19,771 nucleotides of DNA, taken from positions 1 to 19,771 of the forward strand of contig CALPKD020000001.1 of assembly GCA_943324055.2 (NCBI GenBank), given 5' to 3'. The translations under genes and the position numbers were made by a program. Positions 331-17,506 of this stretch are shown piece after piece. Position 1 is the stretch's first letter; each line of letters starts with the position of its first letter. The notes under the pieces were generated by a model. It did no database searches. It was not told the origin of the DNA and worked only from the letters and a program-made list of their open reading frames with translations. Source of the stretch: Chitinophaga pinensis (GTDB lineage: Bacteria > Bacteroidota > Bacteroidia > Chitinophagales > Chitinophagaceae).

Positions 331-374
331 CTAAATTCTACCTATAAAAACTTACACGTTATGACGTAGGTCAT
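331..374 (-). promoter_or_regulatory. Crp/Fnr-type operator and promoter of the iron-centre repair gene
   Basis: A perfect inverted repeat ATGAC-gtag-GTCAT lies at 361-374. On the minus strand the octamer GAATTTAG (331-338) is centred exactly 33 bp downstream. It matches 4 of 6 fixed positions of the Bacteroidota -7 element TAnnTTTG, so it is the weakest of the six. The operator centre is 55 bp upstream of the start codon, the same as at the other promoters of this set. Operator plus spacing suggests class II activation. Confidence 0.6.
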
Positions 375-450
375 TTTCTTTCATGAAGTTCATCAATTTG
401 GGAATAATTCCGGATTTCAACAATGCATTGTATACACAAAAAATAAGTGC

Positions 451-1428
451 TTAATCTTTAAATGGTTTTTTCTTAATCATTCCGCCCTTTGTATCTTTTA
501 CTGTATTCATTACTACGAATGCAGTGGGGGTGATTTTCTCAATTTCTGCGTTCAATTTATTTACTTCTAGGCGTGTTATAACTGTATATATAATATCAAC
601 TTCTTTTACTTCCCCTCGTTTCCCGAAACCCTTTTTTCCACTATATACCGTTACCCCTCTTCCCATTACTTCGATTATCATTTTTTGTATTGCTTCGCAA
701 TGGGTTGAGACGATGGTGACTCCTATGTACTCGTCAATACCTTCAATGATAAAATCGAGCGTTTTGGATGCTGCGAAATAAGTAATCATAGAATACATAG
801 CCACTTCGATAGAAATCAGATAAGCGGCTGTTGAAAATAGGACTAGATTAATGATGATAATAATATCGCCAATAGTGACTCCAAACCTTTTGCTTAAATA
901 GATCGCAAGCACTTCTGTGCCATCAATTACAGCTCCTCCTCGGACAGCTAATCCAATCCCTCCGCCCAGGAATATACCTCCAAAAATGGCGATTAATAAG
1001 CTATCCTTTGTAATGGGTGGGAAACTGATCAGTGCAATGCATAGAGATAAAGTTGTGATTGCCAAGGCCGTCTTTATTGCGAATGATTTTCCGAGTGTGA
1101 TATACCCCAGTAAAATGAATGGGATATTGATACCAATGATTAATAAGTATACAGGAATTCCTGTTAGAGTAGAAGTTAAAAGGGAAATCCCCGTTGCCCC
1201 TCCATCCAAGAATTGATTGGGTATTAAAAATCCCTTCAATCCTAAAGTTGCCGAAAAAACGCCTATTAAAATTAAGAAAAAATCTTTTGTATAATGCTTG
1301 ATTGATATTCTAAAACTGCGATATTTTTTTGCAGCCTTATAGCCACTCTCTTTTTTGGACACAATCAATGCAATTGATCTTATATTTTCTAATACAAGTG
1401 ATTTTATTTTTTGTGGAAGTAGTTGCAA
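451..1428 (-). CDS. YitT family membrane protein (DUF161 + DUF2179)
   Basis: A 325-residue integral membrane protein. After about 48 mostly basic, soluble residues there are about five hydrophobic segments (roughly 50-70, 90-110, 120-137, 143-165, 186-210). Family landmarks are the loop PNQFLDGGATGISLL (about 70-84) and AVIDGTEVLAIYLSKRFG (about 166-183). The C-terminal soluble part (about 235-310, with HCEAIQ and GRGVTVYSGKKGF) fits the DUF2179 domain. YitT proteins are widespread and their transported substrate is not established, so no function is assigned. The gene begins 10 bp after the GH30 gene ends on the same strand, so the two are probably co-transcribed. The N-terminal extension before the first membrane segment is longer than I expect for the family, so a later start is possible, although no other ATG is available before the first helix. 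Confidence 0.85.
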   Translation of the reverse strand: MQLLPQKIKSLVLENIRSIALIVSKKESGYKAAKKYRSFRISIKHYTKDFFLILIGVFSATLGLKGFLIPNQFLDGGATGISLLTSTLTGIPVYLLIIGINIPFILLGYITLGKSFAIKTALAITTLSLCIALISFPPITKDSLLIAIFGGIFLGGGIGLAVRGGAVIDGTEVLAIYLSKRFGVTIGDIIIIINLVLFSTAAYLISIEVAMYSMITYFAASKTLDFIIEGIDEYIGVTIVSTHCEAIQKMIIEVMGRGVTVYSGKKGFGKRGEVKEVDIIYTVITRLEVNKLNAEIEKITPTAFVVMNTVKDTKGGMIKKKPFKD

Positions 1429-1438
1429 GTAAATAATA

Positions 1439-2899
1439 TTATTTAATGACTAATGTCTGTATTGCATGAGGCAAGATTGTAATAACCGCAGCATAAGTAC
1501 CAATACATAAATTATATCTAATTTGATTTTCACTTTGATTCATTACTATTACATTAATACTCTTGTCTTGATTTACAAAAGCAGTAGTTAATAGTTGACT
1601 CCTGCTAGCCGAACTATTAATTAATTTTGCACCTGGGCGAACAAATTTTGAAAAATGTCCGATATAATAATAGGCACTTGTAAAAATAAGTGTTCCTTTT
1701 TTCAAATCAGCATGCACTGGTGCAAAGCATAAATTTCCAACATGATTTGGTCCGCCAGTTTCGTCTAATAAGATATTCCAGTCTGTCCAGCCCACACTTC
1801 CATTATTAAAATCATTGATCATGGATCGGCCATAACGTTCCCCTAAATACCAAGCATTTAGTTTTGAATAATCAAAACGCTCTCCGCATCCTTCGGTAAA
1901 CATTATATTTTTATTTGGATACGCTTTGTGTACGAGCCCTACATTATTAAACATGGGCTGACCGCCGCTCCAGTCCTCATACCAGTGAAAACCCATTCCC
2001 CATGCGTATTTAGAAGCTTCTGGATCATCAAAAATTACATTGGCTCTATGTACCATTAAATCTCTATTGTGGTCCCATACGATAATTTTTTTAGCACCAA
2101 GTCCAGCTTTTTGCATTGTAGGACCTAAGTAGTTTTTTAAGAAATCTCTTTCTTCCTCAGCAGTATAAATACAAGACTCCCATTTTTGTGTAGCCATTGG
2201 TTCATTTTGTACAGTGATCCCCCAAACAGGGACACCCTCTTTTTCGTAGGCCTTAATAAACTTAGTATAATAATTTGCCCAGCTTTGACTAAGTGCTGGC
2301 TTTAATTTTCCGCCATGTAGCATTTCATTATTTGTCTTCATAAAAGCAGGAGGACTCCACGGACTTGCATACAGCGTAATTTTTCCACCAGCCGCTTTAA
2401 TTACTTCTTTTATAAATGGTAATCGATATGCGCGATCGTGATCAATATTAAATGTTTTTAAGGCCGTGTCTCCTTCCTTCACGTAGGTATAACTTCCACT
2501 ACTAAAATCACTGCTATGGATTGTGGTCCTTGCTATTGAGTATCCAATACCCTTTTCTTTGCTATAATAGGCCTCTAGTAATTGTACTTGTTGGATTTTT
2601 GATAATTTGGAAAAAGTTTCAGCGCTCGCATCTGTTAAGGCACCTCCAATACCAAGTACTGTTTGAAATTGCTTAGTTGGATCTACAAATACACTTATTT
2701 CTCCTTCAACCGGCTGTGGTAGTATAGTAAAGCCAATTGGAGGCGCAGCTGATATCCTCATATCACTATTTTCTGCTGTAGAAAAAACGGTGACAATTTT
2801 TGAAGCAATACTTGACGAATGCGATTTTTTTTGCTGCTTGTTTTGAGCGAACGTAGACAATGAAAGGAATGGCAATAAAAATACGAAAATTATTCTCAT
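1439..2899 (-). CDS. Glycoside hydrolase family 30 (glucosylceramidase-like beta-glycosidase), secreted
   Basis: A 486-residue protein with a clear Sec signal peptide (MRIIFVFLLPFLSLSTFAQ; cleavage expected around residue 19). The GH30 core is recognisable: FQTVLGIGGALTDASAETF (78-96), SPWSPPAFMKTNN (179-191), ITVQNEP (228-234) with the acid/base Glu233, and IMFTEGCGE (332-340) with the nucleophile Glu336. The motif WNILLDETGGPNH (374-386) is also typical. GH30 enzymes are retaining beta-glycosidases with a TIM barrel and a side beta domain, acting on beta-glucosides, beta-xylosides or related glycans. Export to the periplasm or outside is expected. The sequence looks closest to the bacterial glucosylceramidase / beta-1,6-glucanase branch, but substrate cannot be read from it. 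The downstream YitT gene is probably in the same transcript. Both catalytic acids are present, so the enzyme should be active. Confidence 0.92.
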   Translation of the reverse strand: MRIIFVFLLPFLSLSTFAQNKQQKKSHSSSIASKIVTVFSTAENSDMRISAAPPIGFTILPQPVEGEISVFVDPTKQFQTVLGIGGALTDASAETFSKLSKIQQVQLLEAYYSKEKGIGYSIARTTIHSSDFSSGSYTYVKEGDTALKTFNIDHDRAYRLPFIKEVIKAAGGKITLYASPWSPPAFMKTNNEMLHGGKLKPALSQSWANYYTKFIKAYEKEGVPVWGITVQNEPMATQKWESCIYTAEEERDFLKNYLGPTMQKAGLGAKKIIVWDHNRDLMVHRANVIFDDPEASKYAWGMGFHWYEDWSGGQPMFNNVGLVHKAYPNKNIMFTEGCGERFDYSKLNAWYLGERYGRSMINDFNNGSVGWTDWNILLDETGGPNHVGNLCFAPVHADLKKGTLIFTSAYYYIGHFSKFVRPGAKLINSSASRSQLLTTAFVNQDKSINVIVMNQSENQIRYNLCIGTYAAVITILPHAIQTLVIK

Positions 2900-2953
2900 A
2901 CTAGGTGGTATTATGCTGGGTTAACGAAAGGTTACTATTTAATAGCTGTAAAA

Positions 2954-2961
2954 CAAATTTA
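2954..2961 (-). promoter_or_regulatory. Possible -7 element for the GH30 gene
   Basis: The minus-strand octamer TAAATTTG is an exact match to the Bacteroidota -7 consensus TAnnTTTG, 55 bp upstream of the GH30 start codon. It is also the left arm of a short inverted repeat, CAAATT-taaac-AATTTG (2954-2970). I see no convincing -33 TTG at the right spacing, so this is tentative. Confidence 0.3.
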
Positions 2962-3066
2962 AACAATTTGCGATTCATATTGAATTATTTGTTGAGCCAT
3001 TTTGTTGCAAAAAAATAAAGATTAATTGCAAGATTTACGCTATTTTCATTCTTATAAAATTATAAT

Positions 3067-3291
3067 ATGTCAACAAAAATTACCATTAATAATAATGGAT
3101 CGATAAAAGTAGAAGGAGATTTCACTATTGTAGACCGAGAAGGAAACCAGTATGATTTGGGAGGTAGGGAAGTATTAGGACTTTGTCGTTGTGGACTTAG
3201 TAAAAATAAGCCATTTTGTGATGGAGCACATAATGGTCAATTTGAACACGAGGCAAAAGCATTTGCTTTGCCACCTAAAAAAACACTTTAG
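3067..3291 (+). CDS. CDGSH-type iron-sulfur domain protein
   Basis: A 74-residue protein with the full CDGSH signature: Cys40-x-Cys42, then KPFCDGAH with Cys51 and His55. This three-cysteine, one-histidine pattern binds a redox-active [2Fe-2S] cluster, as in mitoNEET and its bacterial relatives. No signal peptide or membrane segment is seen, so it is probably cytoplasmic; it is a single-domain form. The N-terminal part (MSTKITINNNGSIKVEGDF) resembles the beta-strand lead-in usual in bacterial members. It is followed after 14 bp by the DinB-like gene and then by the DUF2461 gene on the same strand, suggesting a three-gene operon. The precise physiological role of bacterial CDGSH proteins is not settled; redox or Fe-S handling is the family-level expectation. 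Confidence 0.93.
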   Translation: MSTKITINNNGSIKVEGDFTIVDREGNQYDLGGREVLGLCRCGLSKNKPFCDGAHNGQFEHEAKAFALPPKKTL

Positions 3292-3305
3292 TCTAAAATA
3301 TACCG

Positions 3306-4432: not shown

Positions 4433-4435
4433 GTC

Positions 4436-5644: not shown

Positions 5645-5671
5645 AATGGAGCAGGTAATAATTAATAAATA

Positions 5672-5685
5672 ATTGAATATTCAAT
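5672..5685. promoter_or_regulatory. Perfect palindrome upstream of the cytochrome c peroxidase gene
   Basis: ATTGAATATTCAAT is a 14-bp perfect palindrome centred 34 bp upstream of the peroxidase start codon. Upstream of it, TAAACTTG (minus strand, 5705-5712) matches 5 of 6 positions of the -7 consensus. If that is the promoter, the palindrome would lie just after the transcription start, a position suited to a repressor. It differs from the Crp/Fnr-like repeats. The binding protein is unknown. Confidence 0.35.
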
Positions 5686-5830: not shown

Positions 5831-5875
5831 TGTGATAGTTGTCACAATAAATATTGCGATAAATATTGATTTTTG
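5831..5875 (+). promoter_or_regulatory. Crp/Fnr-type operator and promoter of the flavoprotein-rhodanese gene
   Basis: TGTGAT-agtt-GTCACA lies at 5831-5846, close to the E. coli CRP consensus TGTGA-N6-TCACA. The octamer GATTTTTG (5868-5875) matches 5 of 6 fixed positions of TAnnTTTG and is centred exactly 33 bp downstream. The operator centre is 54 bp upstream of the start codon at 5893. Confidence 0.7.
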
Positions 5876-5892
5876 TGTTCTAAACTAGTAAA

Positions 5893-7548
5893 ATGAAATA
5901 CATAATAGTGGGTGCTGTTGCAGGTGGAGCTAGTACTGCAGCAAGATTAAGAAGATTAGACGAACATGCTGAAATAATTATTTTTGAAAAAGGGGAATAC
6001 ATTTCCTATGCCAACTGCGGCTTGCCTTATTATATTGGCAATGTAATTAAGGACCGTAATAGCTTGTTTGTACAAACAGCAACAGCCTTTAATCAACGGT
6101 TCAATATTGATGTGCGGGTGCAAACTGAAGTAGTATCAATTGATGTAGTAAACAAAACAATTAAGGCAAGCAATAAAATTACAGGAGCTATTTATGAAGA
6201 AAGTTTTGACAAGCTTGTTTTGTCTCCAGGAGCTGAACCCATTCGTCCTCCCTTACCAGGGATTGAAAACGAGGGTATTTTTACATTACGCAATGTAAAC
6301 GATACGGATTATATCAAATCCTATGTGACACAACAGTCGGTTAAAAAAGCAGTTGTTATTGGGGGAGGGTTTATTGGATTAGAGATGGCCGAAAATTTAA
6401 AAGAACTAGGGATAACCGTTACAATCATTGAAATGGGTAATCAAATTTTAGCTCCAGTAGATTTCCCAATTGCTGCTATTGTTCAACAGCATATCCGTTC
6501 CAAAGGAGTAGACCTTCGTTTAAGTACTGCAGTAACTGGATTTGAAAAAATGGGAGCTCGATTGCAAGTAAATGTATCAGCAGGCGCACCTATTGAAGCA
6601 GATGTTGTTATTTTATCAATTGGGGTTAAGCCGGATACGAGGTTAGCGTTGGCTGCAGGATTAAAAATCGGCGCTGCGCGCGGTATTTGGGTCAATGAAT
6701 TTTTGCAAACTTCTCATCCTGATATATACGCTGTAGGAGATGCCATCGAATTTGAAAATCCAATCACACATCAACCATTAATTACTTATTTAGCAGGTCC
6801 TGCCAATAAGCAAGGCCGGATATGTGCAAATAATATTGTACTTGGAAATGTGCAAGCATATCATGGATCTATCAATACCGCGATTGTAAAAGTTTTTGAC
6901 ATGACTGTTGCCACAGCAGGCACTGCTGCAAAGCATTTAGTCGCAGCAGGAATTAAGCATATTGTGTCTACTACACATAATGGAGCACATGCCGGATACT
7001 ACCCTGGTTCAAAACAAATGAGTATCCAAATTGCATTTTCACCTGAAACAGGTCAGTTATATAGTGCTCAGATTGCTGGGTACGATGGGGTAGACAAAAG
7101 AATTGATATATTGGCTTCCTTAATAAAAAGGAATAGTACTATTTATGAACTCGTCGATTTTGAACATGCTTACGCACCACCTTATTCTTCTGCAAAAGAT
7201 CCGGTGAATATGGCTGGCTTCGTAGCTGAAAATATTTTATTAGAAAGATTGCATATTTTTTATTGGAATGAAATAGGGCTGATCACCGCTGATGAGCTAC
7301 TTATAGATGTTCGCAGGGCGGATGAATTTGAAAATGGGAAAATCAACAATGCGATAAATATTCCGGTAGACGAACTAAGAAAAAGAATGAGTGAAATTTC
7401 TAAAGATAAAAATGTATTTATATACTGTGAAGCAGGATTACGGGGATATTTAGCGCAACGTATTTTATTGCAAAATGGGTATAAAAATGTGAAAAATTTA
7501 TCCGGTGGATACCAGCTATGGAATGCAGCTAGTAAGGAAGCCGTATAA
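5893..7548 (+). CDS. CoA-disulfide reductase-like flavoprotein with C-terminal rhodanese domain (CoADR-Rhd type)
   Basis: A 551-residue soluble protein with two parts. Residues 1 to about 440 are an FAD/NAD(P)H pyridine nucleotide-disulfide oxidoreductase: the FAD-binding GAVAGGASTAARLRR (7-21), a single active cysteine in SYANCGLPYY (Cys42), a second dinucleotide motif VVIGGGFIGLEMAENL (about 155-170), and the FAD-contacting IYAVGDAIEF (about 280-289). Residues about 455-551 are a rhodanese domain with active Cys512 in CEAGLRGYLAQ. Characterised enzymes of this fusion type reduce CoA disulfide, CoA persulfide or polysulfide with NAD(P)H. The single N-terminal cysteine instead of a CxxxxC pair supports this CoADR/Npsr class over glutathione reductase types. 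The gene stands alone behind a Crp/Fnr-like operator and ends in a shared hairpin terminator. The exact substrate (CoA disulfide, persulfide or S0) is undetermined. Confidence 0.9.
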   Translation: MKYIIVGAVAGGASTAARLRRLDEHAEIIIFEKGEYISYANCGLPYYIGNVIKDRNSLFVQTATAFNQRFNIDVRVQTEVVSIDVVNKTIKASNKITGAIYEESFDKLVLSPGAEPIRPPLPGIENEGIFTLRNVNDTDYIKSYVTQQSVKKAVVIGGGFIGLEMAENLKELGITVTIIEMGNQILAPVDFPIAAIVQQHIRSKGVDLRLSTAVTGFEKMGARLQVNVSAGAPIEADVVILSIGVKPDTRLALAAGLKIGAARGIWVNEFLQTSHPDIYAVGDAIEFENPITHQPLITYLAGPANKQGRICANNIVLGNVQAYHGSINTAIVKVFDMTVATAGTAAKHLVAAGIKHIVSTTHNGAHAGYYPGSKQMSIQIAFSPETGQLYSAQIAGYDGVDKRIDILASLIKRNSTIYELVDFEHAYAPPYSSAKDPVNMAGFVAENILLERLHIFYWNEIGLITADELLIDVRRADEFENGKINNAINIPVDELRKRMSEISKDKNVFIYCEAGLRGYLAQRILLQNGYKNVKNLSGGYQLWNAASKEAV

Positions 7549-7618: not shown

Positions 7619-7861
7619 TTAATGCTTGTGGTCGTGTTTATGATGTGCTTCGTGTTCCTTTTTCACAGCGCAAGTATTCATTCCGAGTAGGGTATATAAT
7701 GGGCAAAAACTGATAATACTTGTCAAAAGGAAAACTCCTCCAAGAACGAGTAAAATAGTACCTACTGTCCCTTCTACCATTTTAGTAATGTACAATGCAG
7801 CAAACGTAATTGCTAAAATTATACGAATTGCTTTGTCAAGTGGTCCCATGTTGCTTTTCAT
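7619..7861 (-). CDS. DUF2892 (YgaP transmembrane-like) small membrane protein with His-rich tail
   Basis: An 80-residue protein with two transmembrane helices (about 10-28 and 32-50) followed by CPLYTLLGMNTC (Cys53 and Cys64), the hallmark of DUF2892, the membrane part of YgaP-like rhodaneses. The C-terminus is a histidine-rich tail (HEAHHKHDHKH), probably metal-binding. In E. coli YgaP one polypeptide carries both a rhodanese and this membrane domain. Here the rhodaneses are separate genes upstream in the same cassette, so this protein may anchor or receive sulfur from them (inference). It is the last gene of the five-gene minus-strand cassette, 28 bp after the metal-binding protein gene, and ends in front of the bidirectional terminator. 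The first ATG was taken; a second at residue 5 is possible. Confidence 0.85.
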   Translation of the reverse strand: MKSNMGPLDKAIRIILAITFAALYITKMVEGTVGTILLVLGGVFLLTSIISFCPLYTLLGMNTCAVKKEHEAHHKHDHKH

Positions 7862-7889
7862 AATTGTTTAATTAAAATGTGAATGAATT

Positions 7890-8135
7890 TTATTTTTGAA
7901 TCAACGCGCTTAACTTATTTAGAAACCCCTTCTTTTTACTTTCAGGGAAACCTAGTTTAGCAAGCTCGGCAAGGATAACTGAATTTACAAAATCATCGCC
8001 AGTAATCAGTACTTTACCAGTTACTTTTTCGGCTACTACTGATCGAATATTCTCGTGTTTAACAAGAGCTGTCTGAATTTTAGCTACACAGCCTTCACAT
8101 TTTACATTGTCTAATTGCAAGGATAGTGTTTTCAT
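7890..8135 (-). CDS. Heavy-metal-associated (HMA) domain protein
   Basis: An 81-residue soluble protein with the ferredoxin-like HMA fold signature: beta strand TLSLQLDNVKCEGC with the metal-binding pair Cys13-x-x-Cys16, then a helix (VAKIQTALVKHENIRSV) and strands with VLITGDD. Such single domains carry copper(I), zinc or mercury to transporters. The usual GMTCxxC is here VKCEGC, still CxxC. A basic C-terminal tail (SKKKGFLNKLSALIQK) extends beyond the domain. Its start overlaps the stop of the DUF6132 gene by four bases, implying coupled translation. Its place in a rhodanese cassette suggests handling of a thiophilic metal or a persulfide-bearing CxxC, though this cannot be decided from sequence. 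Confidence 0.88.
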   Translation of the reverse strand: MKTLSLQLDNVKCEGCVAKIQTALVKHENIRSVVAEKVTGKVLITGDDFVNSVILAELAKLGFPESKKKGFLNKLSALIQK

Positions 8136-8332
8136 TTTGCTTCTTGTTTGAACATACTAAATAATAAATAGCCCATTAAAGCTCCATAGAGACTACTATT
8201 TAATGGCTTAGCGGTAATCATGCAAGTTCCACTTGCACAGCCAATAAATTTCCAATAGGCGAAGCCTGCAACAGCACCTACCAGTAAGCCAATCATTCCT
8301 AATTTATTTTTTTGGATCCAATTTGTGATCAT
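8132..8332 (-). CDS. DUF6132 family small membrane protein
   Basis: A 66-residue protein with two predicted transmembrane helices (about 12-28 and 46-61) separated by FIGCASGTCMITAKPLNSS. The CxxxxxC pair (Cys32, Cys37) followed by a Thr/Ser-rich loop is what I recall for DUF6132 proteins of Bacteroidota, which are often found beside rhodanese genes. The function is unknown; the two loop cysteines at the membrane surface could carry a thiol, disulfide or metal. The gene follows the first base after the preceding rhodanese gene and overlaps the HMA gene by four bases, so it is tightly embedded in the cassette. Confidence 0.75.
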   Translation of the reverse strand: MITNWIQKNKLGMIGLLVGAVAGFAYWKFIGCASGTCMITAKPLNSSLYGALMGYLLFSMFKQEAK

Positions 8333-8641
8333 TTAACTAATTTTTGAACGTAAACTAAACCAACTGCCTCCATTGTACACTTCCACACCAGCTGCTTTTA
8401 GCGCCGATTTTGCCATTCCACTTCGGGCACCACTTTGACAAACTGTAATAATGGGCTTGCCCCATTTTTTGATGGTACTTAGTTCCCGCTGAATAATATT
8501 GACAGGTATATTTTTTGATCCCTGAATGTGCCCTCCGTCAAATTCTTGAGGAGAACGTACGTCGATAATAATTGCCCCTTGGTCTTTTAATGCTTTAAAG
8601 TCGACACCTGGGCCAAATAATTTTTTTAAGAAGCTGAACAT
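8333..8641 (-). CDS. Rhodanese-like sulfurtransferase (single domain)
   Basis: A 102-residue single rhodanese domain. Landmarks are AIIIDVRSPQEFDGGHI (23-39), SKNIPVN and the active loop VCQSGARSGMA with Cys68. The CxxGxRS loop is the usual six-residue active-site loop that holds a persulfide and passes sulfane sulfur to an acceptor. A short hydrophobic, basic N-terminus (MFSFLKKLFG) precedes the domain and might touch the membrane, but it is not a signal peptide. The C-terminal end (VYNGGSWFSLRSKIS) is normal. Its start codon lies 1 bp from the stop of the first rhodanese gene. This is the second of two adjacent rhodaneses, with different N-termini, so they are probably not redundant. Confidence 0.92.
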   Translation of the reverse strand: MFSFLKKLFGPGVDFKALKDQGAIIIDVRSPQEFDGGHIQGSKNIPVNIIQRELSTIKKWGKPIITVCQSGARSGMAKSALKAAGVEVYNGGSWFSLRSKIS

Positions 8642-8642
8642 A

Positions 8643-8930
8643 TTAGTTATTATTTAGAATAGAAATAAGATTGTGGATACCTCCGCCATTATAAACGTCG
8701 GGTATTCCATTTTGTTTTAAGATACTCGTTGCAATACCACTACGACCACCACTTAAACAATACACTAAAATTGGCTTAGGCATAGCTGCTATTTGGCTTA
8801 TGAAACCTTCAAGGGTATCTAGTGGCATATTTACTGCATGTGGGATATGCTCTTGCTCAAATTCCATTTGAGTTCGGACGTCTAATAATGTGCCTTTGTT
8901 TTCCTTTATGGCTGTTATTATATTTTGCAT
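8643..8930 (-). CDS. Rhodanese-like sulfurtransferase (single domain)
   Basis: A 95-residue rhodanese domain, the first gene of the five-gene minus-strand cassette. It has LLDVRTQMEFEQEHIPHAVNMP (15-36, shown in parts) and an active loop VYCLSGGRSGIA with Cys58 as the persulfide-carrying cysteine. No signal peptide is present, so it is expected in the cytoplasm. It is directly preceded by a near-perfect CRP-type operator at 8977-8992. Rhodaneses of this size move sulfur from thiosulfate, persulfides or protein donors to thiols or cyanide; which donor and acceptor are used here is not visible. The fused flavoprotein-rhodanese and the thioredoxin in the neighbourhood are plausible redox partners. 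Confidence 0.92.
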   Translation of the reverse strand: MQNIITAIKENKGTLLDVRTQMEFEQEHIPHAVNMPLDTLEGFISQIAAMPKPILVYCLSGGRSGIATSILKQNGIPDVYNGGGIHNLISILNNN

Positions 8931-8947: not shown

Positions 8948-8992
8948 CAAAATTGGAGTTTTTTATACTTTCTGACTGTGATATTTATCACA
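8948..8992 (-). promoter_or_regulatory. Crp/Fnr-type operator and promoter of the rhodanese cassette
   Basis: TGTGAT-attt-ATCACA (8977-8992) is a perfect inverted repeat and matches the E. coli CRP consensus TGTGA-N6-TCACA completely. On the minus strand CAATTTTG (8948-8955) matches 5 of 6 fixed positions of TAnnTTTG and is centred exactly 33 bp downstream. The operator centre is 54 bp from the start codon of the first rhodanese gene. It also lies just past the 3' end of the regulator gene. Confidence 0.75.
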
Positions 8993-9683: not shown

Positions 9684-9728
9684 TGTAATATAAGTCACAT
9701 TTTAGATTGTATTGAGAAAGTACCTTTG
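9684..9728 (+). promoter_or_regulatory. Crp/Fnr-type operator and promoter of the membrane protein-thioredoxin pair
   Basis: TGTAAT-ataa-GTCACA (9684-9699) has one intact half-site and one with G replaced by A. The octamer TACCTTTG (9721-9728) is an exact match to TAnnTTTG and is centred exactly 33 bp downstream, so transcription should start near 9732, 12 bp before the ATG at 9744. The operator centre is equally far (52 bp) from the divergent regulator start at 9639, so the site may also autoregulate the regulator. A weaker, one-sided copy (TGTGAA-tata-GTCCAT, 9658-9673) lies closer to the regulator gene. Confidence 0.65.
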
Positions 9729-9743: not shown

Positions 9744-9992
9744 ATGCAAAAGCTGTTTTCTAAAATTGATTGGGTGCTTGTTCCTCGACTCATTATGAGC
9801 AGCATCATGTGTATAGTTGGATACCAAACAAATGACTATATCGCAGGCGTCTTTGGTTTGTTTTTTGCAGGGTATTCGATTTTTGGTGCTAAGTATAAGG
9901 TTGGGTGCGGTTATAACGGTTGCGGATACACACCTCGTTCCGCACAAAAGAAGGATCAAAATGTTTCAATTGAGTTTAAGGAATTAAAATAG
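9744..9992 (+). CDS. Small membrane protein with a CX4C motif, unknown family
   Basis: An 82-residue protein with two likely transmembrane helices (about 11-28 and 31-49), then YKVGCGYNGCGYTP with Cys55 and Cys60, and a polar tail (SAQKKDQNVSIEFKELK). The layout recalls the DUF2892 / YgaP membrane domain (two helices then cysteines), but the cysteine spacing and surrounding residues differ and I do not recognise the family with confidence. The gene starts 16 bp downstream of an exact TAnnTTTG element behind a Crp/Fnr-like operator, and a thioredoxin gene follows after 5 bp. This context suggests its two cysteines are redox-active or a substrate of the thioredoxin (inference). The cysteines are predicted to be just outside the second helix. 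Confidence 0.8.
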   Translation: MQKLFSKIDWVLVPRLIMSSIMCIVGYQTNDYIAGVFGLFFAGYSIFGAKYKVGCGYNGCGYTPRSAQKKDQNVSIEFKELK

Positions 9993-9997
9993 TTATT

Positions 9998-10306
9998 ATG
10001 TCAAATGTAGAAACTTTCGGGACCATAATTAAGGGGGAAACTCCAGTGTTGGTCGATTTTTTTGCTACCTGGTGTGGTCCTTGTAAAATGATGCAACCCA
10101 TTTTAGAGCAAGTGCATAATCGTTTAGGAGATAAGGTACGAATCCTAAAAATAGATGTGGACAAGAACCAGCGATTGGCTTCGGAATTGAATGTATCAAG
10201 TGTACCTACTTTAGCCATTTTCCATAAAGGAGAAATAATGTGGAGGCAGGCCGGTGTGCAACAAACTGCTGCGCTTATTGATTTACTTAAGCCCTACACG
10301 AGTTAG
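9998..10306 (+). CDS. Thioredoxin family protein
   Basis: A 102-residue thioredoxin with the canonical active site FFATWCGPCKMM (Cys26-Gly-Pro-Cys29), the buried Asp in VLVDFF (Asp20), KIDVDKNQRLASELNVSSVPT with the cis-proline after VSSV, and the C-terminal helix. No signal peptide is present, so it is cytoplasmic; size and motifs are those of ordinary Trx. It would reduce protein disulfides and persulfides using thioredoxin reductase, which is not in this window. Co-transcribed with the CX4C membrane protein upstream (5-bp gap), under the Crp/Fnr-like operator shared with the rhodanese genes. That makes it likely to be a dedicated thioredoxin of this island rather than the housekeeping copy, though the latter cannot be excluded. 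Confidence 0.95.
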   Translation: MSNVETFGTIIKGETPVLVDFFATWCGPCKMMQPILEQVHNRLGDKVRILKIDVDKNQRLASELNVSSVPTLAIFHKGEIMWRQAGVQQTAALIDLLKPYTS

Positions 10307-11227: not shown

Positions 11228-12289
11228 CTAGCAAATCCGAGGGAGTTGTTCTCCCGTTAAATAATTTACAATTCTTTTCCCCCCAATACTACTTTTCATA
11301 ATTACTTTGCCTGGGTGGGTAAGCGTTACTTCGCCAATCACTGCCGCATTTACTCCGTTTTCATCCGCTTTTAGTTTTGCTAAAAATTCCACTGCAATTT
11401 CTTTTTTTACAACTGCTAAAAATAAGCCTTCATTCGCTACATATAAAGGGTCTAGACCAAGCATTTCGCATGCGCCTTCTACCGACTCATTAATCGGTAT
11501 CAAATTTTGGTCCAGATAAAAACTAAGCTTGGTTAATTCGGCAACTTCATTTAAAACCGATGCGACGCCACCGCGAGTAGGGTCTCTTAAAAATTTAATG
11601 CCCTTTCCAAAAGTTTCGATAAGGGCTAGCACTGTGTGATTTAAGTTGGCTGTATCACTTTGGATTGTTGTTTCAAATTCAATCCCTTGACGCAAACTCA
11701 TAATAGCAATACCATGATTGGCAATATTTCCACTCACGATTACCACATCTCCTTCTTCAATATTATTATGATGAATACTCGCTTTAGGATGTATAATACC
11801 AATGCCAGATGTGTTGATGAATATCTTATCGCCCTTGCCTTTTTCTACCACTTTGGTATCACCGGTTACGATTTTAATATTCGCCTTGTCTGCAGCATTT
11901 TTTATACTCACTAGTACTTCCCAAAATTCCTTCATCGTAAAACCTTCTTCGATGATAAAACCTAAAGACATATACTTAGCTTCGGCCCCGCACATTGCAA
12001 TATCGTTTACTGTTCCATTGATTGCTAAGTCGCCAATATTTCCTCCTGGAAAAAAGATAGGAGAGATTACATAACTGTCAGTGCTAAAAGCTACTTTCCC
12101 ATTTAATTCAAAAATAGCACCGTCATGTTGCTGGTCTAATAAATCATTCTTTAAAATATCAAAAACACCACTTTGCAGGAATTTGTGAGTTAGCAAGCCG
12201 CCACTGCCATGCCCCATTGTGATTACGTCAAAGTCAAACTTTGGCATCGGGCATTGTAGATTCATTTTTATTTTAGGGTCAGTTGACAT
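11228..12289 (-). CDS. hypE: [NiFe]-hydrogenase maturation protein HypE
   Basis: A 353-residue protein of the PurM/AIR-synthase-like fold. Landmarks are ITMGHGSGGLLTHKFL near the N-terminus, KVAFSTDSYVISPIFFPGGNIGDLAINGTVND, and RDPTRGGVASVLNEVA. It ends in GEQLPRIC, so the conserved C-terminal cysteine is the last residue; this cysteine receives the carbamoyl group from HypF and is dehydrated to a thiocyanate that gives the CN ligand of the active-site iron. ATP-dependent dehydration is the family reaction, in the cytoplasm. It is the last gene of the minus-strand hyp operon and follows hypD after 37 bp. Length and motifs are complete, so it should be functional. Confidence 0.97.
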   Translation of the reverse strand: MSTDPKIKMNLQCPMPKFDFDVITMGHGSGGLLTHKFLQSGVFDILKNDLLDQQHDGAIFELNGKVAFSTDSYVISPIFFPGGNIGDLAINGTVNDIAMCGAEAKYMSLGFIIEEGFTMKEFWEVLVSIKNAADKANIKIVTGDTKVVEKGKGDKIFINTSGIGIIHPKASIHHNNIEEGDVVIVSGNIANHGIAIMSLRQGIEFETTIQSDTANLNHTVLALIETFGKGIKFLRDPTRGGVASVLNEVAELTKLSFYLDQNLIPINESVEGACEMLGLDPLYVANEGLFLAVVKKEIAVEFLAKLKADENGVNAAVIGEVTLTHPGKVIMKSSIGGKRIVNYLTGEQLPRIC

Positions 12290-12326
12290 AATTTGATTTG
12301 AGATGGATGAAAAATTAAAACACTTT

Positions 12327-13430
12327 TTATTTAACTGCAGCTTCGTTTACGCCCGAATAGTGATAATATGCAGCGCAAGCCCCTTCACTGCTTACCATTG
12401 GTGCGCCAAGCGGGTGTTCAGGTTTGCATTTTGTTCCAAAATTGGGGCATTGCTTTGGCTTTTTTAACCCCTTCATGATTTCTCCGCTAATACATTCCTT
12501 GTTTTCTTCTGCTAAAGGAATATCGATATTGAATTTTATTCTGGAGTTAAATGCTTTGTAACGATCGTTTACTTCATACCCGCTTTGTGGAATTTTTCCA
12601 ATACCTCTCCAAACGCGATCACTTACTTCAAATACTTTATGGATCGTATCCTGTGCCATTTTATTTCCTTCCCGTTGCACACTTCTTGCATATTGGTTTT
12701 CTACTTTATATTCCCCACTTTCAAGTTGTTGCACTGCCATCAAAATTCCCTGCAATAAATCAACTGGCTCAAAACCGGTGACTACCATCGGACATTTGTA
12801 TTTTTCAGCAATCGGATAGTATTCGTCAATACCCATAATGGTGCAAACATGGCCTGCTGCTAAGAAACCATCAATTTTATTATCCTCGTCACTTAAAATC
12901 GCTTCCATTGCTGGTGGCACAAGCACATGAGATGCTAAGATGCTATAATTGGTAATGCCCATCTGATCGGCATGTACTACGCTTAAAGCATTCGCAGGGG
13001 CAGTGGTTTCAAATCCTACTGCAAAAAATACTACTTCTTTTTCGGGGTTTTGTTTTGCCAATTGGACTGCTTCAAGTGGGGAGTATAAGATCCTTACGTC
13101 TGCCCCTTCCGCTTTTGCTTCTAATAAACTTTTTTTACTACCTGGTACACGCAACATGTCTCCAAATGAACATAAAATTACATTTGGTTGCATGGCTAAA
13201 TAGATGGCTTCGTCAATCACACTTACACTAGTTACACATACAGGACATCCAGGTCCATGAACCATTGTAATGTGTTCGGGTAACATTTCTAAAATCCCAT
13301 TTTTTACTAAGCTATGTGTTTGTCCACCACATATTTCCATCAAAGTCCATGGCTTGGTGGTAATTAGATGTATTTGTTCCAAGTAAGCGGTTACTAATTC
13401 AGGGTCTCTGTATTCGGTTAAAAATTTCAT
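12327..13430 (-). CDS. hypD: [NiFe]-hydrogenase maturation protein HypD
   Basis: A 367-residue protein. The conserved blocks are [16 protein letters not shown] with Cys34, [13 protein letters not shown] with Cys62 and Cys65, [10 protein letters not shown], and a C-terminal cysteine cluster ([27 protein letters not shown]) that carries the [4Fe-4S] cluster. HypD with HypC forms the scaffold on which Fe(CN)2CO is assembled. All expected cysteines are present. The first ATG gives a standard family N-terminus ([13 protein letters not shown]). It follows hypC after 11 bp and precedes hypE, as in many hyp operons. Confidence 0.97.
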
Positions 13431-13441
13431 ATTTGTATAGT

Positions 13442-13699
13442 TTAAATACTTGGTATTTCTAATTCTTCCACCTCTCCCATATCCTTTAAATATTGAAAGG
13501 TTAATTTTGCCTCAGCTTCATCTACGACACTTATTGCAACGCCAACATGTACAAGTATATAGTCGTCAATTTTTGCCTCTGGCACCATGAATAAGTTCAC
13601 TTCCTTTTGGATGCCTCCAAATGAGACTTTCCCTGTTCTGAAAGTATCATCCAATTGTGCAGTAATGGCTAGTAATTTCCCTGGTATTGCTAAACACAT
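13442..13699 (-). CDS. hypC: HypC/HybG/HupF family hydrogenase maturation chaperone
   Basis: An 85-residue protein beginning [10 protein letters not shown]. The cysteine at position 2, exposed after removal of the initiator Met, is the key residue of HypC, and His51 ([15 protein letters not shown]) is the second conserved ligand. HypC carries the Fe(CN)2CO group with HypD and hands it to the hydrogenase large-subunit precursor. Size and motif are normal. It lies between hypF (10-bp gap) and hypD (11-bp gap). Only one copy is present in the window, so it should serve the adjacent group 1 enzyme. Confidence 0.97.
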
Positions 13700-13709
13700 A
13701 AATTGTTGT

Positions 13710-16016
13710 TTAAAAATTATTAATTTCTTCTTCTTCTTTTAATTTGCTAAAATGAATTTCGTTCAAATGATAAGCCATTTGACCTAATGCAATTCCTTCG
13801 TCATTTGGGCTTACTTGTTTTTGAAAATAGAGCACTCTTTTATCTCCAATATTTTCAATGAGCGTATCTACCAATAATGCATTTTGAAATACACCGCCGC
13901 TAAACGCAAGTTGATAAACTCCATGTTGATTACTGAGCGCTAACACTAATTGTACGAGTCCATTGACAATTTTTCGTGCTATAAAATCTTTTTCTTTATG
14001 CATGTCTAGATCAAGCAATAACTCTTGTATAAAGCCATTCCAATGTATTTTATGGTCTATGATTTTAAATGAATAATAAGCTTTATGCGCATAACTGGTT
14101 CGAGCAATCGCTTCCAATTTCATGACGGCTTCCCCTTCAAAACTAGTCTTACTATTAATGCCCATTATACAAGCAAGACCGTCTAAAAAGCGACCCATAC
14201 TACATGTTTGTATACCCGCAGGCTGTTCTATTAATTGGCTATAATATTGCCATTCTTGTGTTGTAAAGTGTTTTTTTACCAGTTGCTCCTTGTTTATTGA
14301 TTTTAGTAAACTCAGTGCTGATAAACGAGGTTCTTTACTCATTTTATCGCCTAGTAAAATAGGAAAGTATTCAAGATGAGCAAGTCTTGTAAATAACGCT
14401 TCCTTGTACATAAACAATTCCGATCCCCATATTTGCCCGTCTTCTCCGTATCCTGTTCCATCCCAAATAAAGCCGAGAATTATATGATTTTCCCCCAATA
14501 ATCCATTTTCACTAAGAACGGACGCGAAATGTGCTTTATGATGTTGTATCGTATGTAATGCCGCATTTGTATTGCCTGCTATTTGCTTTCCTGCATCACC
14601 AACAAAATAATTTGGGTGCATATCTATTAATACCTTTTCGGGTATTTTTTTAAATAACTTTTGAAACTGTTTAAATGTTTGGCCATATGCTTCCTGAGAT
14701 GCTAAATGACTTTGGTCTCCCAAAAACTGACTAATATATAATTGGTTTAGATTTGCATAGGCAAATGCGCTTTTCAATTCTCCCCCAGTGGCTAATATTA
14801 TTTCTTTGTTATCGCTAAATGGGTTTGGGAAATAATTTGGAGCGAGCCCACGACTTCTTCTTAGTATTATCTTTTGACCTTCACTTGTAAACTGAATGAC
14901 AGTATCGTCCTGAGGGCTAACAATGTCTCGATCATAAGTAAGTACTAGGGAAGCGACTTGAAACAAGTTTTCTAGGGCATCTACGTCTTTATAGATAATG
15001 GGTGCGCCACTTATATTTGCACTTGTTGCGATCATTGGCCCTTTTACTTCTAATGAAATTATATACAGTAGGGCAGAACTAGGTAAGATTATGCCGAGCT
15101 TGTCTAATGCCGGTGCAATGGATTCTTTTTGAACAGATGTGGCTGATTCGTCTTTGATCTTACATAAAACAATCGGAGCAACAATCGATTCAAGTGCGTG
15201 TGCCTCTTGTTCAGTAATTACAACGGCTTTTTTTGCAGCGGCCACACTAGAAAACAAAACTGCAAATGGCTTTGTAGGCCTCTTTTTATTTTTTCTAAGT
15301 GTTTCAATCGCAACTTTATTTGTTGCATCGCATAGTAGCAGGTACCCTCCTGTATTTTTGATTGCAATTGTCTCCCCATTTTTAATTGCATTCACTACAC
15401 TAGTAATTATTGTCTTATTATCATGTGAAACACAGCTATTAGGACTTTCAAATAAATACATCGGTATAGTACAATTCCGGCAAGAATTAGTTTGGCTATA
15501 ATGTCGCCTATCCAATACATCATTATATTCTTTTTCACAACTAGGACACATCTCTATTTTTTTCATAGTAGTATGTGCTCTGTCATACGGCAGCTTTTCA
15601 ATGATGGAATATCTCGGCCCACATGCTAAGCAAGTAGTAAATGCATATTTATACCTTTTATTAGTAGCATCTTGTATTTCATTCTTGCATTCAGTGCAGA
15701 TTGAGAAATCAGGAGCTATTAATAAATCTGCTTCTCGAGTTGGATCACTTGCTTGAATTTCAAAAACCGTAAATTGTTTTGTTGTAGTTTCTTGGATATG
15801 CGTAGTAGTAATAATGGCGTTACAAGGTGCATTTTCGATTAAGGCCTGTAAAAATGAATTTGCATTTTCGGCACTTGCATTTAATTCGATATGAACGCCA
15901 TCCATACCGTTATTTACCCACCCCTTCAAATTCAAGCGGGTAGCTAGTTGATACACGTATGGCCTAAATCCCACACCCTGTACAAGGCCATTGATATGAA
16001 TGTGAAAAGTATGCAT
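13710..16016 (-). CDS. hypF: Carbamoyltransferase HypF
   Basis: A 768-residue, full-length HypF. From the N-terminus: acylphosphatase domain (1-90) with GLVQGVGFRPYVY (Arg18) and Asn36; four zinc-finger pairs, CTEC (107-110), CLAC (129-132), CPSC (157-160) and CRNC (179-182); a YrdC-like domain (about 200-385) with KKRPTKPFAVLF and TSANISG; and a Kae1-like domain (about 400-755) with the metal motif HHKAH (492-496), FIWDGTGYGEDG and AFSGGVFQNALL. It makes carbamoyl-adenylate from carbamoyl phosphate and ATP and transfers the carbamoyl group to HypE. The second zinc-finger and terminal finger regions are somewhat off consensus (CRNC-TIP instead of C-x-x-CGP). The gene starts on the base next to the hypB stop, so translation is probably coupled. 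Confidence 0.97.
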   Translation of the reverse strand: MHTFHIHINGLVQGVGFRPYVYQLATRLNLKGWVNNGMDGVHIELNASAENANSFLQALIENAPCNAIITTTHIQETTTKQFTVFEIQASDPTREADLLIAPDFSICTECKNEIQDATNKRYKYAFTTCLACGPRYSIIEKLPYDRAHTTMKKIEMCPSCEKEYNDVLDRRHYSQTNSCRNCTIPMYLFESPNSCVSHDNKTIITSVVNAIKNGETIAIKNTGGYLLLCDATNKVAIETLRKNKKRPTKPFAVLFSSVAAAKKAVVITEQEAHALESIVAPIVLCKIKDESATSVQKESIAPALDKLGIILPSSALLYIISLEVKGPMIATSANISGAPIIYKDVDALENLFQVASLVLTYDRDIVSPQDDTVIQFTSEGQKIILRRSRGLAPNYFPNPFSDNKEIILATGGELKSAFAYANLNQLYISQFLGDQSHLASQEAYGQTFKQFQKLFKKIPEKVLIDMHPNYFVGDAGKQIAGNTNAALHTIQHHKAHFASVLSENGLLGENHIILGFIWDGTGYGEDGQIWGSELFMYKEALFTRLAHLEYFPILLGDKMSKEPRLSALSLLKSINKEQLVKKHFTTQEWQYYSQLIEQPAGIQTCSMGRFLDGLACIMGINSKTSFEGEAVMKLEAIARTSYAHKAYYSFKIIDHKIHWNGFIQELLLDLDMHKEKDFIARKIVNGLVQLVLALSNQHGVYQLAFSGGVFQNALLVDTLIENIGDKRVLYFQKQVSPNDEGIALGQMAYHLNEIHFSKLKEEEEINNF

Positions 16017-16790
16017 TTAAACAGTTTCAGGAGCTAGCACTTTTGATTTTAACCAATGATACCATTCTTGTAAACCTTCGCCCGTTGTACAACTCACCTC
16101 AATGATGCGTAGGTTTCTATTAATTTTTAAAGCGTTTTCTTTTACCTTATCCATACTAAAAGACACATAGGGAAGTAAGTCAATTTTATTTACAATACAT
16201 AAAGTAGAAGTGTAAAACATATCAGGGTATTTCAAAGGTTTGTCGTCTCCTTCGGTTACACTGATGATAACCACTCTTTCCTTTTCCCCTAAATCAAACA
16301 TAGCTGGACATACTAGGTTGCCTACATTTTCGATGAACAACACCGAGTTGTTTTTAAGTTTCATTCCTTGCACTGCATGTAGTACCATATGTGCATCTAG
16401 GTGACAGCCCTTGCCTGTATTAATTTGTGTTACTTTTGTACCTGTTGCGTGAATACGATCTGCATCATTGGTAGTTTGCTGGTCTCCTTCGATCACTGCA
16501 AATTCTACCTGTCCTTTTAAGTCGGTCAAAGTTTTTTCGAGTAAAGTGGTTTTTCCTGAACCCGGCGAACTTACTAAGTTTAGTGCAAGAATATTTTTAG
16601 CGTCAAAATATCCTTTATTCCGCTCTGCTAATAAGTTATTCTGTTGTAAAATATCTTGTTCAACATCCACAATTTTTTTTCCATGACTATGGGTGTGATC
16701 CTGACCATGACTATGATCGTGATTGTTATCCTGACCAGGAACGTGCATTGTTACAGTTCCATCGGCGCTACATCCGCAAGTTGCACACAT
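16017..16790 (-). CDS. hypB: Hydrogenase nickel incorporation GTPase HypB
   Basis: A 257-residue GTPase. It begins MCATCGC (Cys2, Cys5, Cys7), the high-affinity nickel site, followed by a histidine-rich stretch (residues 24-37, HDHSHGQDHTHSHG) that can store nickel or zinc. The G domain shows the P-loop SSPGSGKTTL (74-83), NTGKGCHLDAH with the metal-site Cys129-His130, and the G4 motif NKIDLLPY. GTP hydrolysis drives delivery of Ni to the large subunit with HypA. Possession of both the N-terminal CxxCxC site and a His-rich region combines the E. coli-like and rhizobial-like designs. The gene is 40 bp downstream of hypA and directly abuts hypF. Confidence 0.97.
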   Translation of the reverse strand: MCATCGCSADGTVTMHVPGQDNNHDHSHGQDHTHSHGKKIVDVEQDILQQNNLLAERNKGYFDAKNILALNLVSSPGSGKTTLLEKTLTDLKGQVEFAVIEGDQQTTNDADRIHATGTKVTQINTGKGCHLDAHMVLHAVQGMKLKNNSVLFIENVGNLVCPAMFDLGEKERVVIISVTEGDDKPLKYPDMFYTSTLCIVNKIDLLPYVSFSMDKVKENALKINRNLRIIEVSCTTGEGLQEWYHWLKSKVLAPETV

Positions 16791-16830
16791 ATATATAGTT
16801 TTAAAAAATTAGTTTGAATACTTTGTAGTA

Positions 16831-17172
16831 TTAGTTTACTACCAAGCTTTTTACTTTTAATTCCTTCCCCTTTTTGATATTTAAAAAATGCCCACTACAT
16901 ACTGGACATGCGTCGTATAAGTTCTTTACTGAAAAATCAATCATACAGTCAAGGCATGTTGCCAAACCTTCGATATGGTTAATCCTGCGCTCAGCAAATT
17001 GCAAGGGCGTGTTTTTTACAGCTTCTTTCCAAGCAAATTCAAAGGATTGAGCTTCAATGCCACTTAGGTCTCCAATCTCTAATTCAATCTCCTCAATGAT
17101 TGTAGCATCCGCCCCTTCCATTTGTTGTTTTGCAATATCAATGATACTCATTACAATGGACAGCTCATGCAT
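16831..17172 (-). CDS. hypA: Hydrogenase maturation nickel metallochaperone HypA
   Basis: A 113-residue protein beginning MHELSIVMSII; Met1-His2-Glu3 form the nickel site. A zinc ribbon is formed by two pairs: Cys73/Cys76 (CLDC) and Cys89/Cys92 (CPVC). Both features are those of HypA/HybF. It passes nickel to HypB and the large-subunit precursor. The acidic block EEIELEIGDLSGIE (27-40) is also typical of the family. It sits after the small His-rich membrane protein (5-bp gap) and before hypB, in the divergently transcribed hyp operon. Only one HypA-type gene is visible. Confidence 0.96.
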   Translation of the reverse strand: MHELSIVMSIIDIAKQQMEGADATIIEEIELEIGDLSGIEAQSFEFAWKEAVKNTPLQFAERRINHIEGLATCLDCMIDFSVKNLYDACPVCSGHFLNIKKGKELKVKSLVVN

Positions 17173-17177
17173 AATAA

Positions 17178-17390
17178 TTATTTAGACTTTTGCTTCTTGC
17201 CTGAAATTAATACAATTGCTAATGTTACAACGATACAGCCTATTGTTACAATTGCATGCATTGGCTCAACAAAGTAATGTATAATAGAGTAGCCAGTATC
17301 TCCATGATCTCCGTGACCAGGATGTGCAAATAATACTTCTGGTAAAAAAGCGACAAATATCATGAATGCTAGTGTGATAAACTTTTTCAT
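17178..17390 (-). CDS. Small His-rich membrane protein (HupE-like N-terminus), first gene of the hyp operon
   Basis: Read from the second ATG (17388-17390), this is a 70-residue protein starting MKKFITLAFMIFVAFLPEVLFAHPGHGDHGDTG: a signal peptide (1-22), then a mature N-terminus HPGHGDHG, and a transmembrane helix (about residues 40-58) with a Lys-rich tail (GKKQKSK). Nothing in the 13 residues before the second Met looks like a signal peptide, so the later start is preferred; the earlier ATG at 17429 gives 83 residues. The mature HPGHG start resembles the beginning of HupE/UreJ nickel transporters, whose N-terminal histidines and HPxGxDH motif serve nickel uptake, but the remaining helices of HupE are absent. 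A reduced nickel-binding or scaffold protein is plausible. It precedes hypA by 5 bp, and is probably in the same transcript. Confidence 0.82.
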   Translation of the reverse strand: MKKFITLAFMIFVAFLPEVLFAHPGHGDHGDTGYSIIHYFVEPMHAIVTIGCIVVTLAIVLISGKKQKSK

Positions 17391-17410
17391 ATGTTTTTGA
17401 TTTATGTATC

Positions 17411-17454
17411 CAATATTATAACGATTCATAAATTGACTTTATGATTACAATCAT
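17411..17454 (-). promoter_or_regulatory. Crp/Fnr-type operator and promoter of the hyp operon
   Basis: ATGAT-taca-ATCAT (17441-17454) is a perfect inverted repeat. On the minus strand TAATATTG (17411-17418) matches 5 of 6 fixed positions of TAnnTTTG and is centred exactly 33 bp downstream. Transcription would begin near 17403-17406, which lies inside the reading frame of the longer start (17429) and so supports the shorter one (17390). Confidence 0.65.
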
Positions 17455-17462
17455 TACGCCTT

Positions 17463-17506
17463 ATGACATTTGTCATTACAGTAAGGTATAACGGTATCTA
17501 AATTAG
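17463..17506 (+). promoter_or_regulatory. Crp/Fnr-type operator and promoter of the hydrogenase structural genes
   Basis: ATGAC-attt-GTCAT (17463-17476) is a perfect inverted repeat. TAAATTAG (17499-17506) matches 5 of 6 fixed positions of TAnnTTTG, centred exactly 33 bp downstream. The leader to the ATG at 17546 is about 30 bp, longer than at the other promoters. The centre is 22 bp, about two helical turns, from the divergent hyp operator. Confidence 0.68.

Follow-up and report, generated by a model that had tools for sequence, protein, structure and literature searches.

Six candidate Crp/Fnr-type operators with one promoter geometry and two sequence classes at sulfur and hydrogenase genes of a Chitinophaga pinensis contig

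Genes for hydrogen oxidation, persulfide handling and Fe-S repair lie close together on a 19,771-nt stretch of Chitinophaga pinensis DNA (the window; assembly GCA_943324055.2, contig CALPKD020000001.1), and six similar inverted repeats precede them. Are these repeats read by one regulator or by two? The window, contig C1 of a 275-contig assembly of 1.59 Mb that is 56% complete, carries divergent [NiFe] hydrogenase (hya) and maturation (hyp) operons, a RIC/ScdA-like Fe-S repair gene (RIC), a gene for a CoA-disulfide reductase-like protein with a rhodanese domain (CoADR-rhodanese), a rhodanese cassette, a thioredoxin operon and the gene of a Crp/Fnr regulator, called Reg here (Table 1). A first-pass annotation had assigned all six repeats to a single regulon. 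From the comparisons presented below, we consider it rather probable that they serve two Crp/Fnr-type regulators as class II-like activator operators, with a promoter geometry common to both.

One spacing and two operator classes

We read the six repeats directly in the sequence and found all of them at the annotated positions, in intergenic DNA. An octamer resembling the −7 box TAnnTTTG lies 33 bp from each repeat centre and faces the proposed gene, and the annotated scores of 4, 5, 5, 6, 5 and 5 out of 6 were reproduced exactly. At offset 33 the total over the six sites was 30, compared to 19 for the next best among offsets 12-79; when the downstream segments were shuffled by mononucleotides, the best of 40 offsets gave at most 25, and 0 of 20,000 shuffles reached the observed score. 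The distance from repeat centre to start codon, given as 52-55 bp at four sites, is 55, 54.5, 54.5 and 52.5 bp from the coordinates. The half-site rule nTGA(C/T) holds with one exception, the left half of the site at 9684-9699 (TGTAAT), and this TGTAAT-N4-GTCA site is kept in 16/16 close relatives, imperfect half included. At class II promoters the operator lies near −41.5, and the sites together with the constant 33 bp support the annotated view of Crp/Fnr-type operators with a fixed, class II-like spacing.

The close relatives compared were Bacteroidetes and Chitinophagaceae assemblies, plus one record titled Comamonas (L028). At Reg-linked sites, the −7 boxes at offset 33 averaged 5.5 of 6 in 16 close relatives and 4.78 in 18 distant ones; at the divergent thioredoxin operon of 16 relatives the average was 5.81. 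The 34 hydrogenase loci (the window, four close relatives and 29 family genomes) gave a mean of 4.24 on the hyaA side (next best offset, 2.56) and of 4.47 on the hyp side (next best, 3.15). Among nine cbb3-oxidase promoters, eight scored 6/6 at this offset and one 5/6. Single sites have counterparts as well: the site at 5831 at CoADR genes of L019, L022, L069, L071 and the complete relative G277, a site of the class of 8977 after the Reg gene in 16/16 close relatives, and the RIC site 50-53 bp upstream of RIC in L103, L105, L106 and L107, while relatives carry GAATTTTA, GAGTTTTA or GAATTTTG at the RIC −7 position. As far as sequence can tell, the promoter code of the six sites is real and conserved.

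At the hydrogenase promoter, the best pair of TGAY-N4-RTCA cores was spaced 22 bp apart in 34/34 loci (tied with another spacing in two), with no mismatch in 19 loci, one in 14 and two in 1. Each twin site lies 33 bp from the −7 box of its own divergent gene, and its partner lies 22 bp further upstream. By this arrangement, the hydrogenase promoter is a conserved divergent twin operator. Within the family, hydrogenase genes were found in 31/394 genomes, the window's included (16/101 genera).

The sites differ at half-site position 2. Operators of the sulfur loci read NGTGAY-N4-RTCACN, with G at position 2 of both halves in 41/43 sites (32/34 after Reg, 6/6 sulfur-locus sites of G277 and 3/3 thioredoxin-permease sites), whereas both halves carried G in 0/73 operators of the hydrogenase (0/51), cbb3 (0/18) and RIC (0/4) loci; at the 33 hydrogenase loci outside the window, 43/51 sites have no G at position 2 (Fisher p = 2e-29 for the class split, uncorrected for kinship). 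This count leaves out the window's own sites, L104 (very like L103), 15/66 hydrogenase sites with a core mismatch and 11/45 Reg loci lacking a core site within 110 bp, and the six G277 sites, one of which serves an RND efflux operon, were found by a pattern permitting only A or G at position 2. With sites selected by their core only, position 2 was G in 69/76 Reg-linked half-sites (38/46 loci); in hydrogenase half-sites it was A in 76/106 and G in 8/106. In the window, the sites at 5831, 8977 and 9684 (log2 ratio, +7.1 to +8.8) belong to the G class and those at 361, 17441 and 17463 (−9.8 to −11.7) to the A class. An internal control is provided by L105-L107, where the intergenic stretch between RIC and a divergently oriented thioredoxin-permease gene contains two sites, one for each gene and of that gene's class.

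When the repeats were counted without position or promoter context, little or no excess was observed. In the window's assembly, WTGAYNNNNRTCAW gave 65 matches and its reversed control 36; over 17 genomes (forward counts), TGTGAYNNNNRTCACA gave 10 matches against 13 and TATGAYNNNNRTCATW 57 against 65. Nine of the ten matches of the TGTGA form (TGTGAYNNNNRTCACA) stand at a rhodanese or CoADR promoter and one within an unrelated open reading frame (ORF); in the 1.59-Mb assembly this motif occurs at two places, 5831 and 8977. The enrichment at other promoters that the first-pass annotation had named as a check did not appear in a plain count in G277, where the relaxed motif DRTGAYNNNNRTCAYH gave 20 places and its control 25. 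Seven of the 20 lie in one 26-kb stretch, at CoADR, the rhodanese cassette, a thioredoxin-rhodanese-permease gene set, an SQR-like flavoprotein, the RND efflux operon and two hydrogenase sites. An eighth lies between persulfide-dioxygenase-like and TauE genes, where the octamer at offset 33 is a weak −7 match (score 3); one further place, with mixed halves, precedes a weakly NapH-like gene, and 11/20 are no clear case (the SQR, dioxygenase and NapH names are matches below NCBIfam cut-offs). Genome-wide enrichment of the bare motif was rejected as proof of a regulon, and the significance of the sites, read from sequence, is in their position, conservation and spacing.

Reg and the sulfur genes

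Reg belongs to the Crp/Fnr superfamily, with PF00027 and PF13545 both above cut-off. Its AlphaFold2 model, used for secondary structure (mean pLDDT 89.9, pTM 0.69), presents a beta-strand domain, a long helix and a helix-turn-helix. The recognition helix SREVVSRL is conserved at R182 (71/71 aligned sequences, window included), E183 (67/71) and R187 (71/71). CRP makes its recognition-helix contacts through the pattern Arg-Glu--Arg and, since SREVVSRL keeps it, TGTGA is the predicted target of Reg. A CX5C pair is nearly invariant (C78 in 71/71, C84 in 70/71): in the model, a short helix (79-86) contains C84 and is immediately preceded by C78; both cysteines fall in the part of Reg that aligns with the cAMP cassette of CRP. 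These are the only cysteines of Reg and both lie in the effector domain; the N-terminal cluster-binding cysteines of the FNR (Fe-S) subfamily were not found. Nor was the Arg-Ser of the phosphate-binding cassette of the CRP (cAMP) subfamily: Ser91 is invariant in 41 sequences, and the preceding position, aligned with Arg82 in the CRP chain, is variable.

In 34/45 relatives a core site follows Reg at a distance of no more than 110 bp, and 32/34 of these sites are both-G. The Reg family is large (at least 7,968 clusters at E 1e-30, of 8,000 scored), with generic names among the 120 listed. In distant orthologues, Reg adjoins persulfide-dioxygenase-like, TauE/SafE and rhodanese genes. Near distant Reg, a core site was found at 25/26 TauE/SafE exporter genes, in every case both-G, and a site at 26/26 persulfide-dioxygenase-like MBL-rhodanese genes (18 hybrid with one G and one A half, 7 both-G, 1 other); the genes were selected by their start motifs, and near-duplicates occur among the loci. 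Reg thus combines a conserved cysteine pair with sulfide or persulfide target genes, as a dithiol persulfide sensor would, the gene names being domain matches of which several fall below NCBIfam cut-offs. Overall, the G class fits the operator of Reg, and Reg is probably a persulfide-responsive activator, persulfide being suggested as its signal because conserved cysteines and sulfur target genes occur together.

Most likely, Reg would sense persulfide or polysulfide through the Cys78-X5-Cys84 pair of its effector domain, would then bind TGTGAY-N4-RTCACA, some 41 bp ahead of the start, and would recruit RNA polymerase to a Bacteroidota-type promoter with the −7 element TAnnTTTG. It would thereby induce CoADR-rhodanese, the rhodanese cassette and the thioredoxin operon and, in relatives, also persulfide-dioxygenase-like, TauE/SafE exporter, SQR-like and thioredoxin/permease genes. 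The 9684-9699 centre is also 52.5 bp from the Reg start, with a score of 1/6 at offset 33 on that side; because this −7 box is lacking, the Reg gene may be subject to repression or be transcribed from a different promoter. Two further features were seen at the sulfur genes. At the persulfide-dioxygenase-like genes (L033-L061, L217-L241), hybrid sites have a fixed polarity, with the TGTGA-type half upstream and the TCAT half gene-ward in 18/26. The RND efflux operon of G277 (OEP domain by Pfam, other two genes by eye) has a G-class operator at L258 3688-3703 and a −7 box of 6/6.

Reg and its promoters resemble Escherichia coli CRP and class II CRP/FNR promoters in fold, in the R-E--R helix, in TGTGA-N6-TCACA half-sites and in the distance of about 41 bp between the site and the inferred start downstream of it; they differ in the Bacteroidota −7 box, in the two conserved cysteines and in the variable residue aligned with Arg82. 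The best PDB sequence match to Reg is a Crp/Fnr-family protein, 3dv8 (E 7e-14), with cysteines aligned to C78 and C84, although, at 55 bits over about 200 residues, the match is a distant one. In Porphyromonas gingivalis, PgRsp and HcpR are likewise Bacteroidota Crp/Fnr regulators, of redox and nitrosative stress, but are described, in the portions of those papers covered here, as heme-binding; the PgRsp paper uses neither 'rhodanese' nor 'sulfide' in its main text. CstR, SqrR/BigR and FisR are described as sensing sulfide or persulfide through several thiols (PMC9774590, in part); they belong to the CsoR, ArsR and Fis/sigma54-activator families and not to Crp/Fnr. The covered part of that review names CsoR, ArsR, Fis-type and other persulfide sensors; 'fnr' is absent from its main text and 'crp' occurs in its references only. 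We recognised no description of Reg or of this gene combination in the literature searched, whose coverage mostly excludes subscription papers. A Crp/Fnr persulfide sensor would, if true, be a new solution among persulfide sensors, and one in a large family.

Candidate readers of the A class and competing explanations

The A-class sites would belong to a respiratory or low-oxygen, FNR/FixK-like circuit, and the hydrogenase twin operator would work much as does the promoter of the cbb3-oxidase, which has a FixL-like PAS kinase and a fusion of receiver and Crp parts (REC-Crp) as neighbours. That promoter has a similar twin layout, with sites 21-23 bp apart. A FixL-type sensor kinase, with a FixL-related heme-PAS domain and a kinase part, was found in relatives, outside the window: in G129 the PAS domain beside REC-Crp matches FixL (1d06) with E 6.2e-16 and the remainder matches a kinase, the aligned His in its yrheHdgy stretch being presumably the ligand. 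Genes for ccoNO were found in 9/27 fetched REC-Crp loci and in 2/20 loci of one set; since they are scarce there, the cbb3 comparison rests on close relatives and G142. Cbb3 oxidase and hydrogenase are the kinds of target that FNR, FixK and FixLJ low-oxygen circuits control. The present system resembles these in its A-class core and in a heme-PAS, FixL-like kinase adjoining a Crp output; it differs in the fusion of receiver and Crp in one protein and in the twin sites 21-23 bp apart, and hydrogenase is a candidate target of it. The A class looks respiratory or low-oxygen by its gene contexts. REC-Crp was rejected as the sole reader, as 10/30 hydrogenase genomes do not have it at E <= 1e-60. 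Two side observations concern such fusions: in L272-L278 a FixL-like PAS kinase (examined in L273) adjoins REC-Crp near cbb3-oxidase genes, the pair forming a two-component system with a Crp output domain, and a second REC-Crp lies on contig C24 of the window's assembly.

Several observations weigh against assigning the six sites to two regulators in this way. Hydrogenase −7 boxes at offset 33 are weak on both sides in L193-L196 (1-3 of 6) and reach only 3/6 on the hyaA side in L179, L181 and L182. Three genomes lacking REC-Crp at the above threshold (G311, G180 and G087) keep mismatch-free twin sites, and 11/45 Reg relatives have no core site within 110 bp after Reg. The p-values overstate independence, because most rows are related. 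The hybrids at 18/26 persulfide-dioxygenase-like promoters all have the same orientation, and 6/9 cbb3 near sites end in TCAC; because such sites exist, Reg may tolerate A halves. Finally, 26/30 hydrogenase genomes carry a Reg match better than 1e-50 (the four others being G311, G180, G142 and G284), and strong Reg occurs in 6/6 hydrogenase genomes of one set compared to 35/110 others (p = 0.0015, assuming that all 117 genomes of the set are among the 394 family genomes).

This co-occurrence also speaks for the single regulon of the first-pass annotation, in which Reg would read all six sites, TATGA halves being lower-affinity variants in a graded response that links H2 oxidation to sulfide stress. 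The shared core and geometry, the hybrid G/A sites near Reg and the distance between hydrogenase and Reg (8 kb in the window, 22 kb in G277) point the same way. Such a regulon would need one operator motif, and two classes were observed, with hybrids elsewhere. Moreover, G311 and G180, genomes of the same genus, have mismatch-free twin sites although their Reg relative is only 41% identical and they lack both strong Reg (E <= 1e-50) and REC-Crp (E <= 1e-60), and the 20 hydrogenase loci that were fetched (7.7-19.9 kb) contained no Reg match. Because of the difference at position 2 and of these twin sites, the inclusion of hydrogenase and RIC genes is not supported, while a coherent sulfur regulon around the window's regulator stands. 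On this sequence evidence the single-regulon reading is probably wrong, and we regard it as unlikely. A nitric oxide (NO)-responsive Crp/Fnr regulator, like the one encoded upstream of RIC in G118 and G129, could instead read the A class, which would make hydrogenase and RIC a nitrosative or denitrification regulon. Its gene has its own site, TATGATTTTGGTCATG, with a −7 box of 6/6 at offset 33, RIC lies two genes downstream, and the divergent genes resemble cytochrome c and, by eye, nosZ. We consider this quite improbable, since the regulator was recognised in 2/17 close genomes (several other short Crp-like matches were not examined) and since G131, a genome that keeps its hydrogenase sites, has three Crp/Fnr matches, none of which is this regulator. 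As a general A-class reader it was not supported. That the 16-mers are no more frequent genome-wide than their reversed controls would fit chance repeats in AT-rich promoters, an explanation that retains hardly any credit given the 33-bp spacing in each promoter set, the 22-bp twin spacing in 34/34 loci and the conservation.

Two Crp/Fnr-type regulators with one geometry therefore remain the preferred reading. More tentatively, a large Bacteroidota Crp/Fnr branch could be a dithiol persulfide sensor running sulfide detoxification from class II promoters, with G/A at half-site position 2 insulating it from a parallel low-oxygen hydrogenase/cbb3 circuit and oriented G/A hybrids at the O2-using persulfide dioxygenase letting both signals be read at one site. 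Bacteroidota promoters are hard to read; the 33-bp rule and the G/A discriminator would form a testable code predicting sulfur and low-oxygen/H2 regulons, and the two-class split corrects a tempting merger of two circuits.

Genes and sites of the window

The features are presented in Table 1. The hyp genes beyond hypE, hypC and hypB carry the names that we take to be theirs; where genes are present, the hyp order is kept in the fetched hydrogenase loci L197-L216.

Table 1. Operators, −7-like boxes and genes in the window
Feature	Position	Strand	Basis or remark
RIC/ScdA-like Fe-S repair protein, truncated at contig end	1..312	-	Pfam ScdA_N; longer homologues in relatives
−7-like box GAATTTAG, 4/6, RIC	331..338	-	
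A-class operator AATGACCTACGTCATA before RIC	360..375	-	
G-class operator TGTGATAGTTGTCACA before CoADR-rhodanese	5831..5846	+	
−7-like box GATTTTTG, 5/6, CoADR-rhodanese	5868..5875	+	33 bp from operator centre
CoADR-rhodanese: CoA-disulfide reductase-like flavoprotein, C-terminal rhodanese domain	5893..7548	+	Pfam, NCBIfam (TIGR03385 below NCBIfam cut-off)
Rhodanese cassette	7619..8930	-	Pfam; small ORF by reading
Cassette: YgaP-like membrane protein	7619-7861	-	
Cassette: HMA-domain protein	7890-8135	-	
Cassette: small membrane ORF	about 8132-8332	-	
Cassette: rhodanese	8333-8641	-	
Cassette: rhodanese	8643-8930	-	
−7-like box CAATTTTG, 5/6, rhodanese cassette	8948..8955	-	
G-class operator TGTGATAAATATCACA before rhodanese cassette	8977..8992	-	
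Crp/Fnr regulator Reg, 210 aa	9007..9639	-	Pfam
G-class operator TGTAATATAAGTCACA	9684..9699	+	One perfect, one imperfect half
−7-like box TACCTTTG, 6/6, thioredoxin operon	9721..9728	+	
Thioredoxin operon	9744..10306	+	
Small cysteine-containing protein, 82 aa	9744-9992	+	No family match
Thioredoxin	9998-10306	+	Same operon
ORF83-hypA-hypB-hypF-hypC-hypD-hypE maturation operon	11228..17429	-	NCBIfam HypE, HypC, HypB
−7-like box TAATATTG, 5/6, hyp side	17411..17418	-	
A-class operator AATGATTGTAATCATA (plus strand TATGATTACAATCATT), near site for ORF83-hyp	17440..17455	-	
A-class operator TATGACATTTGTCATT, near site for hyaA	17462..17477	+	
−7-like box TAAATTAG, 5/6, hyaA	17499..17506	+	
[NiFe] hydrogenase small subunit (hyaA)	17546-18679	+	NCBIfam hydA
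[NiFe] hydrogenase large subunit (hyaB), cut at window end	from 18705 to 19771	+	Pfam NiFeSe_Hases on relative's large subunit; reading frame

The 82-aa protein encoded between Reg and thioredoxin gave no match in Pfam and NCBIfam searches; it has a C-terminal cysteine motif and is present in 16/16 close relatives. ORF83 (17178-17429), the first gene of the hyp operon, gave no match in a Pfam search; its product is an 83-aa, His-rich, membrane-type protein, present in 18/20 fetched hydrogenase loci, and its translation may start at an internal Met at about 17390. The Crp/Fnr gene upstream of RIC in L136 (G118) and G129:C61 has its own A-class site and is divergent from genes that look like cytochrome c and, by eye, nosZ. 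The record titled Comamonas sp. (L028) holds this Bacteroidota gene cluster, with Reg 81% identical and hyp genes, and its bin or title is therefore probably wrong.

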